The notes under the pieces are model-generated. The model made no database searches, was not told the DNA's origin, and saw nothing but the letters and a program-made list of their open reading frames with translations. The position numbers and the translations under genes were made by a program. A DNA stretch of 64,000 nt, from the NCBI RefSeq assembly GCF_024198255.1, contig NZ_JAJVKW010000001.1:248001-312000 (forward strand). Direction: 5' to 3'. Of the stretch, positions 54,634 through 62,469 are shown in pieces. The DNA comes from Myxococcus guangdongensis (lineage in GTDB: Bacteria > Myxococcota > Myxococcia > Myxococcales > Myxococcaceae). Each line of letters begins with the position of its first letter. The stretch's first letter is position 1.

Positions 54634-54804
54634 GGCGGGCAGGGCTCCTCTTCGAAATGAAACGGCGGGCCCCATTCTTCCTCCCGACGCCCCCCCGGGA
54701 GCCAGTAGGAAGCGGCCCGCCCTCGTCCGCCTCCCCCAGGAGCGGCCACCAGGGCCTGGAAATGCAGCGTGGCCGCCGGGCCGTCCCGGGGGTCTGGAGG
54801 TCAG

Positions 54805-55380
54805 GTGGGTTCCACGGAGGGACTGGCGGAGTGGGTACGGCGCGCGGCGAGTGGGGAGACCTCCGCCTTCAGTGAACTGTATCGGCGCACCCGCCCCCTC
54901 GTGGCGAGGTTGGTGACGGGGTTCGCCCCGCTGGACTCGGACGAGGTGGACGACGTCATCCAGGAGTCCTTCGTCCGGGCGTTCCGGGCGCTGCCCCGGC
55001 TGAAGGAGCCGGGGGCCTTCGAGGCGTGGCTGTTGTCCATCGCTCGCAACCGGGCGCGCACCCGGCTGGAGCGCAAGGCCCACCTGAGGAGGCTGGAGGA
55101 CGACATCGCAGACCCGGAGCCGGAGGCGGTGCCGCCCATGCCGGAGTCCCTCCAGCTCGAGCGCGACATCGAGGTGGTCCGTCAGCTCATCGCCGAGCTG
55201 CCCGAGGGCGAGGAGAAGCGGACAGTGCACCTTTTCTATATCGAAGGGGAGCTGTCCGCGCGTGAGATTGCGGAGCAGCTGGGCGTGGGCAAAAGCGCCG
55301 TGACGATGAGACTCGAGCGCTTCCGGGGCCGTATCAAGAGAGAGTTGCTGCGGCGAGTGCTCGCCGGTCGGTGGGAGTGA
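54805..55380 (+). CDS. ECF-type RNA polymerase sigma factor
   Basis: The start is the GTG at 54805 after GGAGG; the product is 191 residues. Region 2 is clear ([19 protein letters not shown] and [16 protein letters not shown], the latter part of 2.2/2.4). Region 4 has an HTH ([20 protein letters not shown]). An acidic linker separates them. It is followed after 6 bases by a membrane protein with an HxxxxCxxC anti-sigma-like motif, the usual ECF pairing. The group cannot be named without comparison. It probably controls its own operon, including the caspase-like gene. Confidence 0.92.
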
Positions 55381-55386
55381 GAGGTC

Positions 55387-56202
55387 ATGAGACACCTGGA
55401 TGACGAGGCGCTCGGCGCCCTTGCCCGTCGTGAGCCGGACGCGGTGACGTACTTCCGCGAGCACCTGGCCACCGCGTGTGAGGCGTGTGAGGGCTACCTC
55501 GCCACCCACTCCGGCCCCGACCTGCTGGACGGACGGGTGGACGCGGCGCTGCTGGCCCTCTCGCCCCCGCGCCCCGAGGCGCCGCTGGACGAGGTGGGCC
55601 TGGCGCGGGTGAAGAAGCAGCTCCGCGCACCGCCCCGGTGGGACGCGCGGCGCTGGGGCGTGGTGGCGGGCGCGGTGGCCGCGGCGCTCGTCGCGGTGGT
55701 GGTGGTGCCCCGGGTGCGGCAGTCGGGCTCGGGGGTAGAGGTGGGGACGGACTCCCTGGCGCCCGGCGTGAAGGGCCAGGTGGGGAGGATTGCCCTGGAG
55801 CTGGCGGTGGTGGCGCGCGGCGCGGACGGGAGCCTGCGCCGCCTGGACCCGGACACGCAGGTCCCCCCGGGCGACGTGCTGCTCTTGCGCTACCACGCGA
55901 CGGAGGCCGGCACGGGGCTGCTCTTCCAGCAGCGGGCCGAGCAGGAGCCGGAGCTCCTGGGCACCTTCGTGCTGGAGGCGGGGACCCATGACCTGCGTGG
56001 CCCACAGGGGCTGTCCGGGGTCAGCCTGGAGGGCGAGTCGGGGCCGTTGACGCTGTGGTTGGCCGCCACGCCCTCCGGCCTGGAGCCCTCGCCCGACGAG
56101 GTGAAGCGGGTCCTGGTGGGCGGAGGTGAGCGATGGGAACACGGCACGCTCGCCGTGACCCGGTTCGACGTGCGCGTGGGAAGCGGCGAGAATCCGCGCT
56201 GA
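55387..56202 (+). CDS. membrane anti-sigma-like protein
   Basis: The 271-residue protein has an N-terminal cytosolic part with H26 and C31/C34 (HLATACEAC). This resembles the zinc-binding anti-sigma motif Hx3Cx2C but with one extra residue between His and the first Cys. One transmembrane segment ([19 protein letters not shown], about 89-108) is followed by a periplasmic region of about 160 residues, mostly beta ([37 protein letters not shown]). Adjacent to the ECF gene, it probably holds the sigma factor at the membrane. Confidence 0.82.
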
Positions 56203-56206
56203 CCGA

Positions 56207-57859
56207 GTGATTGTGAGGCCCCTCCTCTTCATCCTGCTGGCGGCGCTGACCGCGTGCGCGACGCCTTCGTCCCTGGGGACGGAGAAGGGCGGGCTCGTGC
56301 CGCTGCGGCTCGACGAGGAGGCGCTCTCCAGCGCCTACACGCCCCGGCGGATGGCGCTGCTGGTGGGCATCTCCGAGTTCGATGATCCCCATTGGCGGGG
56401 GCTGCGCTACCCGTCCAAGGACGCCAAGGACCTGGCCGCGGCGATGCTGGACCCGACGAAGGGCCGCTTCGACCAGGTGCGCGTGCTCACGCGTCCGGAG
56501 GAGACGACGCGCTCGGCCATCCTCGCCGCGCTCAGGCAACTGCGGCAGGAGGCGCACCGTCCGGATGACGTGGTGGTGGTCTACTTCTCCGCGCACGGCA
56601 CCCTGGCGCGCGACGCCACCGGGGAGCTGCGCCGCTTCCTGGTGACGCGGGATGCGTCCTATCGCGCCATCGCGCAGACGGCGCTGTCCATGGACGCGCT
56701 GAAGGCGGAGTTCGACGCGCTCTCCAGCCGGCGGCGCCTGCTGGTGCTGGCCTCGTGTCACAGCGGCAACGGCAAGTCGCTGTTGCCCAAGGAGCTGGAG
56801 AAGGAGCTGTCGGGCATCAAGTCCGGCTTCTACGCACGGCCGCTGGAGGAGTCCTCGCGAGCGTCCATGGTGTTCGCCGCCTGCGACTGGGGCGAGACGG
56901 CGCGCGAGGACGAGGGCCTGCAGAACGACATCTACACGCACTTCCTCGTCGAGGGGTTGGGCGGCGGCGCGGACCGCAACGCGGACGGGGCCGTCACGGC
57001 GACGGAGGCGCACGACTACGCGCGCCGACGCACGTTCGCCTTCACGGAAGGACGGCAGCGGCCGTCGGCGGAAATCCTGGAGGTGGGCGCGGACCCCGTG
57101 GTGCTGTCGGGCAGCATCGCCCGCACGGGCCGGCCGGAGCTGTTCTCGTACAACCCCCGGCTGGATGGCTTCACGCTCAAGGTGGACGGAGAGCCGCGCA
57201 CGGAGCTGCCGGGTGGCGCGGCGGTGGTGCCGGGCAAGCGCACGGTGGAGCTGACCAAGGGTGACGCGGTGCTGGTGCGCCGCGAGGTGGACGTGGCGGA
57301 CGGGGAGCGGCTGCCCTTGGAGCAGCTGTTGTCGGAGGCCTTCCCCCGGCGGGCGCTGTCGCTCCTGGGTGGCATGTTCACCTTCGCGGACGCGCGGAGC
57401 CGCGAGGAGCTGTTGCCCATGGCGCCAGAGGTGGCGGTGTCGCTGCGGCTGGAGGACCGTCCACTGCGCGACTTCGGGCTGTTGTTCGATGTCAGCTTCA
57501 GCACGGGACGGCGCACGTTGCAGCTGCTCCCGGAGGACGCGGTCCCCTTCCGCTACACGACGTTCTCCGCGGGGGTGGCGCTGCCCTACCTGTGGCGCTG
57601 GGAGCGGCTGACGCTCTTCGCCGGCCCGCGTGTGGCCACCTTGTACCTGGGGCGGTCTTTCGATGTGGAGACGTACGCCGGCGGGCAGAGCTACTTCACG
57701 GTCAGCCCCGGCGTGGTGGGAGGCGTGGTGCTGAGGGTGGGAGAACGCCTGGAGTTGGTGAGCCAGGCGCAACTCATGCTGACGTACGTGGTGTTGGACG
57801 GGAAGGGACAGGCCGTGGGCTTCACCGGCGGCTGGGCCGGTGTGGGGTACCGCTTTTGA
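56207..57859 (+). CDS. caspase-like (C14) lipoprotein with PEGA-like and beta-barrel-like tail
   Basis: The start is a GTG at 56207 (another is at 56213). The 550-residue lipoprotein has a signal ending LTACA. The caspase-like domain (about 45-290) carries the catalytic pair: His130 in [10 protein letters not shown] and Cys184 in [16 protein letters not shown]-like beta segment (about 320-370) follows. The C-terminus looks like an outer-membrane beta-barrel (alternating aromatics, final Phe; [27 protein letters not shown]). This is an exported orthocaspase, unlike cytosolic ones. The stop overlaps the next start. Confidence 0.85.
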
Positions 57860-58971: not shown

Positions 58972-59697
58972 TCACCCGCCCGGCGTGAGCACGAGCCCGT
59001 CGCGCGCGAGCCGAGACACCGCGGCGAGGACGTCGGCCTCGGGCATCCCGGTGGCCGCCGTCACGGCGGACGCGGACAGGCCCTCCACCGCCATCTTCAG
59101 CACGAGCAGCGTGGGCGGCGTGGCCTCCTGGTAGTACGTCACCAGGTCCACCGGGTGGCGCCACAGGAGCGCCAGCTCCTCGCCCGTCTCGGGCGCCCCA
59201 CCCTCGCCCCGACTCCGCACGTGCGCGCAGAGGCGGAAGCGGTGCTCCAGCACGGCCAGCGTGGGGTTCGGCGTCAGCGTCTCCACGCGTGCCGGTGACG
59301 GCGCCTGGGACGAGAACACCGCGAAGTCCGTCCACTCGAAGCGCGCGAGCTCGGCCGCGTGGGGCGGCAGGCCGTGGGACACGAGCGAGTCCGCGATGAA
59401 CGCGGGGAAGCCTTCGCCCAGGCGGTTCACCTCGTGGTGCCGCGCGGGACGCGTCAGCGTGTAGCCCTCCACCAGCGAGGCCCACGCGTCCGGCCCCACC
59501 GCGCGGCGCAGGAGGGGATAGAGCTTCTCCACCGCGCCTCGCACGTGGCCTCGCACGAAGTCGCCATAGAGGGACACCCGCCGCGCGGGCGCATCCCAGC
59601 CCGGGTTGCTCGCGTAGAGCTGCTCCAGCGACTCCGCGCCCGGCTTCGCGAGGTACGCGCCCATGCCGTCGAAGAAGTGCTTCAGCGCGGGCTTCAT
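58972..59697 (-). CDS. DUF2063 protein (BufC/HvfC-type partner of MNIO enzyme)
   Basis: The 241-residue soluble protein starts at an ATG overlapping the DUF692 stop. It shows the DUF2063 N-terminal domain pattern (KHFFDGMGAYL, ARRVSLYGDFVRGHVRGAVE, YPLLRRAVGPDAWASLVEGY) and a C-terminal putative HTH-like part (LSASAVTAATGMPEADVLAA). In bufferin and other MNIO pathways this partner binds or presents the precursor to the DUF692 enzyme. The four-base ATGA overlap with that gene makes the functional link strong. Confidence 0.9.
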   Translation of the reverse strand: MKPALKHFFDGMGAYLAKPGAESLEQLYASNPGWDAPARRVSLYGDFVRGHVRGAVEKLYPLLRRAVGPDAWASLVEGYTLTRPARHHEVNRLGEGFPAFIADSLVSHGLPPHAAELARFEWTDFAVFSSQAPSPARVETLTPNPTLAVLEHRFRLCAHVRSRGEGGAPETGEELALLWRHPVDLVTYYQEATPPTLLVLKMAVEGLSASAVTAATGMPEADVLAAVSRLARDGLVLTPGG

Positions 59698-60545
59698 CGT
59701 CGCTCCGTGTTGCCGCCGAGCACGGCGCGCGCCTGGTCCGCCTCGTCCAGCACGGCCGTCATCGACGGGATGTCCTGGTCCCACTCGATGAGTGTCGACA
59801 CGGGGCCGGTGCGCTCGAGCACGTAGCGGTACAGCAACCACACGTCGTCGCAGACGCGGTCTCCGTGCGTGTCGATGATGACGTCGGGGTAGCGCGTGTG
59901 GCCGGCGAGGTGCACCTGCACCACGCGCTCGAGCGGCAGCGCGTCCACGAAGGCGCGCGCGTCGTAGCCGTGATTGAGCGCGTTGACGTAGACGTTGTTC
60001 ACGTCCAACAGGAGGCCACAGTCCGCCTCCTCCACCACGTGCCGCAGGAAGTCCGCTTCGCTCAGCGTGCCCCCGGGCATGTTCGCGTAGTAGCTCGGGT
60101 TCTCCAGCAGGAAGGGGCGGCCCACGCGGGCCATCACCTCGCGCACGCGCGGCACGACGTGCTCCACCACGGCCTCACTGAAGGGCAGTGGCAGGAGGTC
60201 ATGCAGGTACACGCCGCCCAGCCGCGAGTAGCACAGGTGGTCGGAGAAGAACGGCGCGTCCACGCGCTTCACCAACTCGGCGAGGGCCGTGACGTAGTCC
60301 ACGTCCAGCGCGTCCGGTCCGCCGATGTCCAGGCCCACGCCATGCGGCAACACGGGCCAGCGCTCCACGCACGCATCCAGCGCGCGCTGGGGACGACCGC
60401 CGAGCGACAGGAAGTTCTCCGGGATGATCTCCACCCAGTCGAGCGTGCGCTCCGTGCGCGGCAGCTCCTCGTAGAAGCTCCTGCGAAGGCCGATGCCCGC
60501 GCCCAGGGGCTTCAGTCCGTGTCTTCGCGCATACGTCGCCACCAC
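59694..60545 (-). CDS. DUF692 multinuclear non-haem iron oxidase (MNIO, BufB-type)
   Basis: The 283-residue enzyme starts at a GTG (GGAGG upstream). DUF692 motifs expected to bind the iron centre are present: HGVGLDIGG, FFSDHLCYSRLGG, FLLENPSYYAN, LLLDVNNVYVN, HLAGH, IDTHGDRV and IEWDQDIPS. MNIOs convert precursor cysteines into thiooxazole or related groups, with a DUF2063-type partner. The neighbouring Cys-repeat peptide upstream is the likely substrate. This is a TIM-barrel metalloenzyme of the bufferin type by context. Confidence 0.92.
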   Translation of the reverse strand: MVATYARRHGLKPLGAGIGLRRSFYEELPRTERTLDWVEIIPENFLSLGGRPQRALDACVERWPVLPHGVGLDIGGPDALDVDYVTALAELVKRVDAPFFSDHLCYSRLGGVYLHDLLPLPFSEAVVEHVVPRVREVMARVGRPFLLENPSYYANMPGGTLSEADFLRHVVEEADCGLLLDVNNVYVNALNHGYDARAFVDALPLERVVQVHLAGHTRYPDVIIDTHGDRVCDDVWLLYRYVLERTGPVSTLIEWDQDIPSMTAVLDEADQARAVLGGNTERR

Positions 60546-60574
60546 GGCGGGATACCTCCGGAGTCGATGCGAAA

Positions 60575-60608
60575 CCGGGCGGTGGGAGCTGTTGTTCCCA
60601 CCGCCCGG
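60575..60608 (-). terminator. 13-bp hairpin between bufferin precursor and MNIO genes
   Basis: CCGGGCGGTGGGA (60575-60587) pairs perfectly with TCCCACCGCCCGG (60596-60608) across an eight-base loop. On the minus strand it is followed by TTTCGC. It lies inside the operon, 26 bases after the precursor stop. A partial terminator here would give more precursor than enzyme mRNA. Confidence 0.75.
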
Positions 60609-60634
60609 AGGGGCCTGGATGCGGCCCGTGACGA

Positions 60635-60901
60635 CTACTTCTTGCCGCAGCCGCCCGCGCCGCAGGCGTGCTCGGTGCCCTTCTCCGGCGTCGCGGCGGG
60701 GGTGGCGCCGTCGGTCTTCTGCGCGCCGCAGCCCGCCTCGGCGCCCTTGTCGCCCTCGGCCTTCTGCGCGCCGCAGCTGCCCTCGGCGCCCTTCTCCGCG
60801 GCGGCCGGCTGGGCCTCGGCGGACTTGGTGGAGGCACAGCCGGTGGCGAGGGAGGCCAGGGACAGGGTGCCGACAATCGCCGCAAGAGCCTTCGCGTTCA
60901 T
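60635..60901 (-). CDS. bufferin-like RiPP precursor (HvfA/BufA2-type)
   Basis: From the ATG at 60901 the 88-residue peptide has an N-terminal export signal (ALAAIVGTLSLASLATGC). A Cys-motif core follows: EGSCGAQK, AGCGAQK and HACGAGGCGKK, giving four core Cys, each followed by Gly. This matches EGxCG-type cores of HvfA/BufA2 bufferins, which are modified by a DUF692 MNIO. Two near-identical CGAQK units show internal duplication. The signal ends with a lipobox-like ATGC, so the peptide might be membrane-anchored. Copper binding is the family role, here inferred. Confidence 0.85.
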   Translation of the reverse strand: MNAKALAAIVGTLSLASLATGCASTKSAEAQPAAAEKGAEGSCGAQKAEGDKGAEAGCGAQKTDGATPAATPEKGTEHACGAGGCGKK

Positions 60902-61008: not shown

Positions 61009-62469
61009 CTACGGATGCCGCTGAATCGCGGATGCATCCGATACGCAATTCCCTGCGGGTGGGTTACACCCTGGATTTTCCAGCGCCTCGCGCAACGCGC
61101 TGTCACGGGCCGGCACCAGGTGGATGCCGTCAGCGCCCGTCGTCACGCCCAGCGTTTGTAGCAAACCTTCCTGCTCCACAAAAGCTGGCCGCTCGAGGTG
61201 GCGGGCGAGCAACGCATCGAACAGCGGCCGCCCCGCGACCTCGTCCACCGCCACGCCAAAAGCACCGAAGGTGGACGTGCTCCCCCGCGCCGCCAGCAAC
61301 TCCAACACATCCTCCAGGTGACGGCGGTTTCCAGTGACACGGCGGATTTCCACATCGAGGTGCAGTGCGAAGAGCGCGCCCGTCCAATAGGTGCCTGGGG
61401 AGAAGTCGCTGTCGGCGACGACCTCCTTCATGGTGCGGGCTTTGGCCACGTCGCGACCGCGCGCGAAGCCGTCCACCAGTTCGCCCCAGGCGCGCTGGGC
61501 GCTCTGCCTTCCCGAGCGGACCTGCGCCATCTCCGTGAGGTAGGTGGCGAGCCCCTCCGACAACCACGGCACGCGCGGGAGAATCGCCGGGTGCGCGAGG
61601 TGGAGCATCTCGTGGAGGGCCACCCAGTCCCGCTCGAACGACGACTCGGTCGCGTCCTGCCCCACGAGCAGCGAGATGCTGGGAGGCGAGCTCCACAGCA
61701 CCATGCCGAAGAGCCCGGGGCCCTTTCTCCCGGGGACGGGGATGACGCGCACGGTGACTCGGGGATACGGGAAGGCGCGGCGCACGGTGAGCACCTCCTC
61801 CGCCGTCCGCCTCAGCCAGAGACACACCCGCGCATCGTCGAGGTGGGTGAAGCGGCCGAGCACCGCCACGTCCAGCACCGCGCCCTGGAGGCCCACCTGA
61901 CAACGCCGTCCGCCGAAGGCGTGGAACCCCGAGTCGACGAGGTCCTCTGCGCGCAGGTGGTACAGGCCGGTGTCATCCGGTTGCCAGGGCAACAGGGCGT
62001 CGATGCCCTCGACGACGAGCTCCACGCGGAGGTCTGGAGGCGCCAGGTTGGGGCGGATGAGGTACGTGCGTCCGGTGAGATGCCACGCGTCGTCCTCGGC
62101 GCTCCCCGCGAAGAGGTCCGCGCCGTGTCCGCGACGACGGGGTTCGAGCGCGTACCGGTAGCGCAGGAAGCGGATGTCGCGCGGCAGTTGCACCAGGCCT
62201 TCGCGGACCGGGAGGTCGAGACGCTCGCCGTCCTCGCGGTAGGCGCTGATGGAGTCCACGCCGCCGGGGCGGGTGAAGCGGAAGGTGCGCGGCGTGCCTC
62301 GGACGAGGACGACCTCCACATCGAGCGCGGGCGTGGGTTCGCGGACGTAGGTGATGTTGTAGCGCAGCGAGGCCGGGTCGTTCGCCGGACGAGGGCGGCC
62401 ACCGCCGAGGCAGGACAACGCCACGAGGCAGAGCAGCGGGAGCATCGAACGGATGCGCGCGTGGGACAT
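61009..62469 (-). CDS. M61-like gluzincin metallopeptidase lipoprotein
   Basis: From the ATG at 62469 (the frame is open to 62529) the 486-residue protein has a lipoprotein signal ending ALSC. It has an N-terminal beta domain (YNITYVREPTPALDVEVVLV) and a gluzincin catalytic site: HEMLH at about 285 with the Glu ligand in WLSEGLATYLTEMAQ downstream. The M61 (glycyl aminopeptidase) family best fits the order. Membrane-anchored and facing the periplasm or outside. The substrate is unknown. The gene is 107 bases upstream of the bufferin precursor gene and may not be co-transcribed with it. Confidence 0.8.
   Translation of the reverse strand: MSHARIRSMLPLLCLVALSCLGGGRPRPANDPASLRYNITYVREPTPALDVEVVLVRGTPRTFRFTRPGGVDSISAYREDGERLDLPVREGLVQLPRDIRFLRYRYALEPRRRGHGADLFAGSAEDDAWHLTGRTYLIRPNLAPPDLRVELVVEGIDALLPWQPDDTGLYHLRAEDLVDSGFHAFGGRRCQVGLQGAVLDVAVLGRFTHLDDARVCLWLRRTAEEVLTVRRAFPYPRVTVRVIPVPGRKGPGLFGMVLWSSPPSISLLVGQDATESSFERDWVALHEMLHLAHPAILPRVPWLSEGLATYLTEMAQVRSGRQSAQRAWGELVDGFARGRDVAKARTMKEVVADSDFSPGTYWTGALFALHLDVEIRRVTGNRRHLEDVLELLAARGSTSTFGAFGVAVDEVAGRPLFDALLARHLERPAFVEQEGLLQTLGVTTGADGIHLVPARDSALREALENPGCNPPAGNCVSDASAIQRHP

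Follow-up and report, generated by a model that had tools for sequence, protein, structure and literature searches.

A locus of the soil predator Myxococcus guangdongensis that is, judged from sequence, an MNIO/DUF2063 RiPP locus of the captophorin class makes, with a probability of roughly 70 %, a lipid-anchored, MNIO-modified metallophore peptide. It lies in a window of 64,000 nt, the whole stretch of DNA analysed here (GCF_024198255.1, NZ_JAJVKW010000001.1, positions 248,001-312,000 of the forward strand; contig C1 of the genome labelled G000). According to the ORFs of the window, the order on the minus strand is HExxH protein, 88-aa peptide, MNIO and DUF2063 protein (Table 1).

Table 1 Features of the locus (positions in the window)
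Feature	Position	Strand	Remarks
RiPP precursor gene, 88 aa	60635..60901	-	Lipobox signal peptide (LATG|C22) and mature part with four Cys-Gly sites
G+C-rich hairpin in the precursor/MNIO gap	60575..60608	-	Fold and covariation; probable attenuator or mRNA 3'-end element
MNIO (DUF692, PF05114) modification enzyme	59694..60545	-	GTG start; 60542 also possible
DUF2063 partner (PME-type 1)	58972..59697	-	Helical DUF2063 domain and C-terminal winged-helix/RRE-like domain
M61-like HExxH zinc peptidase (gluzincin)	61009..62469	-	Upstream of precursor; N-terminal export signal

An earlier note on this DNA had described a bufferin-type operon with the order precursor-MNIO-partner and an ATGA overlap between the two enzyme genes. 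Both features were recovered: a Cys-motif peptide is followed by a PF05114 enzyme and a DUF2063 gene, and the latter two overlap at 59694-59697, the MNIO stop being ATGA or GTGA in all 34 relative loci compared (L035-L068). The name bufferin applies at the level of the class, as precursor, MNIO and DUF2063 gene are present and the BufB model is reached, and is not supported in the strict sense, as the precursor lacks a DUF2282 match and has four mature Cys. No DoxX gene adjoins the locus, as the note had said (six matches in the window genome, 0 on contig C1). Its description as a minimal version is wrong in one respect, however: the locus is accompanied by a linked, conserved gene for an M61-like peptidase, and in many relatives by a YceI gene as well. 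Downstream of the locus (54769-57859, plus strand), genes that read as sigma-factor-like, anti-sigma-like and caspase-like, an assignment made by reading, are kept in several relatives.

The precursor peptide and its occurrence

The N-terminus of the precursor, MNAKALAAIVGTLSLASLATGC22, is followed by the four CG motifs that had been noticed before (SCG, GCG, ACG and GCG, all in the mature part). Position 22 is a fifth Cys, absent from the earlier note. It stands at the same place, after LA[TAS]G, in all 27 precursors compared, each of which thus has, by motif alone, a lipobox Cys at the end of its signal peptide. Because this Cys is invariant, the product is probably a lipoprotein, that is, a membrane-anchored lipopeptide.

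The mature parts of the 27 precursors mostly contain four Cys (18 precursors) or three (6), and two, five and six occur once each. Gly follows 66 of these 103 Cys and Ser another 27, which roughly agrees with the preference of FonBC for a small residue after Cys (PMC13097082). C80 and C85 are invariant in 20 aligned rows, and the precursor of locus L044 contains EGKCGEGKCGEGKCG. The xGxCG cores appear nearer to the EGKCG/oxazolin (HvfA) type than to Buf1 or Buf2. The commonest 5-mer around Cys is EGSCG (20), and EGKCG occurs at only 4 of the 103 sites, which counts against the preferred reading of the locus. What also speaks against it is that the window precursor is matched by no Pfam model at E values up to 1, DUF2282 included, and by no NCBIfam model, the HvfA-type domain NF050137 included. 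Of five further family precursors scanned with NF050137, one passed the cut-off of 19.5 bits (L055, 22.8 bits), one fell below it (L044, 14.2 bits) and L043, L053 and L057 gave no match. In deeper myxobacterial relatives (L064, L065, L187 and L201) the signal peptide is plain and the cores are of the GEKSC[GS] type.

An MNIO of some sort was found in 86 of the 96 family genomes, and an orthologue of the window enzyme (at least 72 % identity) at 69 loci in 63 of them. A profile built from 20 precursors and searched against the same 96 genomes matched 64. The earlier note had let its reading depend on the small peptide co-occurring with the DUF692 gene in relatives, and at 69 of 69 orthologue loci a conserved, Cys-containing precursor gene lies directly upstream of the MNIO and shares its strand, the two matches being 19-181 bases apart; a pairing this complete is beyond chance. 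Eight further strong precursor matches have no orthologous MNIO alongside. That of G019 sits at the end of a contig; the other seven come from genomes that have a precursor-MNIO locus besides, and these stray precursors may thus be substrates in trans. Extra genes of the lipobox family away from the MNIO orthologue were seen at L145-L150 and L152, those at L145-L147 with a YceI gene of their own. Two weaker matches were set aside, one in G000:C15 (9.4e-4), where the open frame reads as a lipobox-bearing RND efflux adaptor, and one in G015:C3 (5.9e-4), which was dropped as weak.

In a tree of 86 MNIO rows, with a midpoint root only, one branch (98/98) splits the 27 lipobox rows from seven distant peptidase-linked rows; 52 of the 86 rows belong to no group, and the position of individual distant rows is uncertain owing to a number of long branches. 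The MNIOs of two Planctomycetota MAGs (L061 and L062) fall inside a 29-row branch with the myxobacterial lipobox loci, at an unresolved fork. Small ORFs upstream of them have a lipobox-like leader ending in VS[VI]GC and one SCG site, and a transfer between phyla is possible. The record 'Comamonas sp. KCTC 72670' (L041) is placed within Myxococcus by locus and tree and is probably mislabelled.

The signal peptide is more constrained than the mature part of the precursor. In 12 of the 27 precursors (66 pairs) codons 1-22 had a pN/pS of 0.23, as against 0.92 in the remainder; as pS was similar in both parts (0.45 and 0.39), the constraint acts on the protein. At 11 loci with both a precursor and a YceI gene, precursor identity was 92 % in the signal peptide and 65 % in the mature part, whereas the neighbouring YceI proteins, with starts set by hand, gave 59 and 81 %. 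The N-terminal 22 columns of the peptidase, in which several rows are trimmed, were 39 % identical at 10 loci versus 65 % elsewhere. Since the precursor signal peptide is, unlike those of its neighbours, more conserved than what follows it, a second role as leader would fit. A preliminary, unpublished statement (PMC12452194) counts the signal peptide as belonging to the recognition sequence, and the conservation seen here adds independent support to it.

Modification enzymes and the intergenic hairpin

The MNIO matches PF05114 at 4.6e-102. Among the NCBIfam models, BufB is reached just above its cut-off (317.2 versus 310 bits), and HvfB gives 284.1 bits against a cut-off of 360. In an alignment of 16 MNIOs, H68, H103, E148, D181, N184, H212, D225, H227 and E254 do not vary. 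These residues are probably the iron ligands; together with the PF05114 match they place the enzyme among the MNIOs. An alignment to 3bww, which is closely related to HvfB, makes N184, D225 and H227 the probable counterparts of N175, D242 and H244 of HvfB, each of which is essential there (PMC13419390).

The partner matches Pfam DUF2063 at 4.7e-13. Its structure model (mean pLDDT 92.2) consists of a helical N-terminal and a winged-helix-like C-terminal part, and its best PDB match is NGO1945 (3dee) at 2.4e-7, followed by TglHI chains; by sequence alone 3dee gives E = 0.057. Pfam, the model and the structure match thus agree in describing a DUF2063 protein with an RRE-type domain.

Other MNIO loci were seen in passing. 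The second MNIO of the window genome (L153:4174-6217, G000:C22) is a 593-aa frame with a weak, below-cut-off NGO1945_C-like C-terminus, flanked by an upstream ORF for a signal-less Cys-rich peptide and a downstream glycosyltransferase-PqqD fusion; this is a different RiPP cluster, possibly with a glycosylated product. The third (L154:4715-6525, G000:C4) follows a frame with hydrophobic stretches, a CGGCGGGGD tail and no Pfam match, which presumably resembles the TIGR04222 proteins. In two myxobacterial MAGs (L066:4375-5022 and L067:4354-4986) the frame upstream of the MNIO is lipoprotein-like and has GCPA motifs, a CxxCH motif and a weak, below-cut-off likeness to cytochrome P460; an MNIO substrate fused to a haem protein is a possible reading.

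Between the precursor and MNIO genes the sequence folds as a long, G+C-rich hairpin whose stability exceeds that of shuffled sequences by 2 s.d. or more in 23 of 27 cases (the exceptions are L042, L043, L054 and L057). The covariation count took in 21 of these 27 sequences, leaving out L042, L043, L050, L052, L056 and L057. Over these 21 rows, 92.6 % of the cells pair and 15 cells are changed on both sides, and for each of these values 0 of 500 shuffles were as high. Less clear are two of the five measures: six pairs are changed on both sides, a number reached or exceeded in 8 of 500 shuffles, and there are 15 additional pair types, reached or exceeded in 89 of 500. Pairing in slid controls does not rise above 66.9 %, a comparison that favours the hairpin because the structure was read from the same sequences. 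It may be a partial terminator or a 3'-end stabiliser that favours the precursor mRNA.

The linked peptidase and YceI genes

The peptidase gene upstream of the precursor adjoins the MNIO locus in most relatives. A profile built from ten sequences was run on family and phylum genomes. Within the family it gave 65 strong matches (E <= 3.4e-60), 60 of them within 3 kb of an MNIO and on its strand (57 upstream, 3 downstream); the others are in G027, G046, G048, G050 and G019, the last beside a precursor at a contig end. Weak zincin matches (E >= 1.6e-17), in which the catalytic stretch alone was matched, were dropped as probably general M61 proteins. Counted from the enzyme, 57 of the 69 orthologue loci have the peptidase gene, and its absence from 12 speaks against a place in the pathway. 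Among these 12 are all 7 loci of one genus, which has kept precursor and MNIO; the others are second copies in three genomes, the locus of G080 and that of G021, whose contig seems to end just upstream, cutting the YceI match.

Matches at E <= 1e-20 occur in 77 of 195 phylum genomes. Of 15 such places outside the family 14 were examined: at three (L187, L189 and L195) the stretch holds an MNIO, and tblastn detected none at the other 11, some of which are on short contigs. The position of the gene varies: it lies upstream or downstream on the same strand, the latter also at L187 and L189, or is divergent (L060). At L195, in a distant family, it is upstream and beside the MNIO, with no clear Cys-rich precursor next to the two. 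At L189 no DUF2063 match was found; the precursor there reads like a six-Cys Buf2 type, so the peptidase link may extend beyond the lipobox precursor family. A scan of L035-L114 with a narrow HExxH pattern, over flanks of at most 5 kb and often shorter, found the peptidase in myxobacterial loci only.

The model of the window peptidase (pLDDT 87.1) has M61 peptidases as its best structural matches. Top-ranked is 7xyo of Myxococcus fulvus (1.4e-18, TM 0.55/0.51, 21 % identity), which we take to be probably MfuP; 8j9c (TM 0.64/0.53) and 4fgm (0.64/0.54) also match. H286, E287, H290 and E305 do not vary over 27 aligned rows, so that model and alignment together give an M61 fold with an HExxH...E zinc site. 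Six homologues were scanned with the Pfam M61 model, of which L064, L065 and L187 reached the cut-off and the window protein, L058 and L199 missed it. The window enzyme is possibly lipid-anchored, a clear lipobox being present in some relatives only.

The YceI-domain protein of L036 matches PF04264 at 8.4e-21. Genes like it are present in 28 of the 96 family genomes (E <= 1e-20), invariably on the strand of the precursor and 40-67 bases from its match. Four of the 28 are without an MNIO within 3 kb, one of these at a contig end, and the window genome has no YceI gene at this threshold. No paper tying M61 or YceI genes to MNIO clusters was found in the literature searched, essentially the main texts of freely available papers.

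Proposed pathway, alternatives and known systems

In the pathway proposed for the lipid-anchored metallophore, the DUF2063 partner would hold the precursor in the cytoplasm, probably via the unusually conserved signal peptide, while the MNIO would carry out a four-electron oxidation of the Cys in xGxCG sites, most likely yielding 5-thiooxazoles. Sec would then export the modified peptide, which would receive diacylglycerol on Cys22 and, after cleavage by signal peptidase II, be anchored in the envelope, where its thiooxazoles would bind a soft metal, most likely Cu. The hairpin between the first two genes would probably hold precursor output above enzyme output, and the exported M61-like peptidase would probably trim the modified peptide or free it from its anchor.

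Copper as the metal is carried over from relatives by analogy. A modified and lipidated peptide with another job, be it another metal (Zn, Au or Hg) or surface thiol/redox buffering, is unlikely, as the MNIO-PME1 products characterised so far reportedly bind Cu as a rule (PMC13097082). It would fit that no copper regulator or exporter was noticed in passing beside the locus and that the Microbulbifer mmr cluster went undetected in proteomes with or without added copper (PMC12538549), two points that also count against the copper-metallophore reading as such; bufferin-MerC fusions suggest other metals (PMC12452194). An ordinary Buf1/Buf2-like bufferin operon, making a secreted soluble peptide against copper stress with no further partners, would account for the BufB equivalog match and for the gene order and ATGA overlap that the earlier note gave for Buf/Hvf. 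The lipobox Cys in 27 of 27 precursors checked, the missing DUF2282 match, the four and not six mature Cys and a peptidase gene linked in several gene orders make it distinctly improbable. Hardly credible is that the small ORF codes for an ordinary small lipoprotein and that the MNIO acts on another substrate: the low-complexity mature part with its pN/pS near 1 would suit this, yet the precursor adjoins the MNIO at every orthologue locus, C80 and C85 do not vary in 20 rows, and L055 exceeds the HvfA-type cut-off (22.8 versus 19.5 bits).

The peptidase gene could be a bystander with no role in the peptide pathway, its place merely inherited along with the gene order, and there is some real chance of this, given its absence at 12 of 69 loci, the 5 of 65 strong matches away from an MNIO (that of G019 beside a precursor), the 11 of 14 homologues outside the family near which no MNIO was detected (a number of them on short contigs) and a window protein unrecognised by the Pfam M61 model. 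Against it stand the four invariant zinc-site residues and a linkage that persists across gene orders (57 upstream, 3 downstream, the divergent L060, and L187, L189 and L195). A fuller version of the preferred reading, in which a surface-tethered thiooxazole metallophore is cut loose by the linked M61 peptidase and in many species a YceI lipocalin binds or carries the lipidated peptide, is offered tentatively and has to be called doubtful. If true, it would describe a store-and-shed module, and captophorin maturation would include a proteolytic step after lipidation. Digestion of EGKCG products has been called unclear (PMC13097082), and the absence of a protease near the cluster described there is noted in PMC12538549; for one branch, the module would settle whether such products stay whole or get digested. 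The linkage of M61-like and YceI genes makes this stated open question, whether the modified polypeptide is processed, directly testable.

Myxococcus thereby gains an intact putative lipidated-captophorin locus that is open to testing. The locus of M. xanthus AM003 (L043) has the genes for the peptide, the MNIO, its partner and the peptidase, so that M. xanthus, which is genetically tractable, may serve as host. That copper plays a part in predation by M. xanthus has been published (PMC7010606), in a text that contains neither of the terms DUF692 and MXAN.

Among the closest known systems is NedABC of Neisseria dentiae, a 'DAG-RiPP' (RiPP-lipoprotein), which shares with the window locus a lipobox precursor, repeated xGxCG sites, an MNIO and a partner protein, and whose product NedA is a lipidated oxazolin, isolated in triacylated form with -12 Da over three motifs (PMC12636315). 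The present family differs in being myxobacterial, in having mostly Ser or Gly and not Lys before Cys, and in its linked M61-like and YceI genes, of which no mention was found for NedABC in the text available of PMC12636315. More generally, the captophorins FonABC (fontiphorin) and HvfABC (oxazolin) and the bufferins share an MNIO, a PME1 partner and Cys-Gly sites (PMC13097082). Their large groups have DUF2282 or Lys-Cys (EGKCG) or Cys-Lys cores, unlike the window peptide; DoxX often co-occurs with them and no peptidase is named in the part of PMC13097082 available, whereas the window locus has a peptidase and no DoxX. Buf1 and Buf2 have the same order of precursor, MNIO and DUF2063 gene and a Sec signal; of the Buf2 peptides, about 16 % are predicted to be lipoproteins (PMC12452194). 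The window peptide departs from Buf1 by giving no DUF2282 match, or any other with Pfam at E values up to 1, and from Buf2 by its four mature Cys in place of 6 (or 12) conserved ones; the adjacent DoxX gene that is frequent, not obligatory, in bufferin clusters is absent as far as the window genome goes. A parallel from another class is MfuP, an M61 endopeptidase encoded, like the peptidase here, in a myxobacterial RiPP cluster. MfuP cuts the modified core of an M. fulvus lanthipeptide (PMC10885120), whereas the window peptide would presumably be Cys-oxidised and lipid-anchored. As NedA has already been shown to be lipidated, the lipid anchor would be a further instance of a known principle. 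Novel, within the literature searched, are the myxobacterial family itself, its links to M61-like and YceI genes and the signal-peptide contrast.
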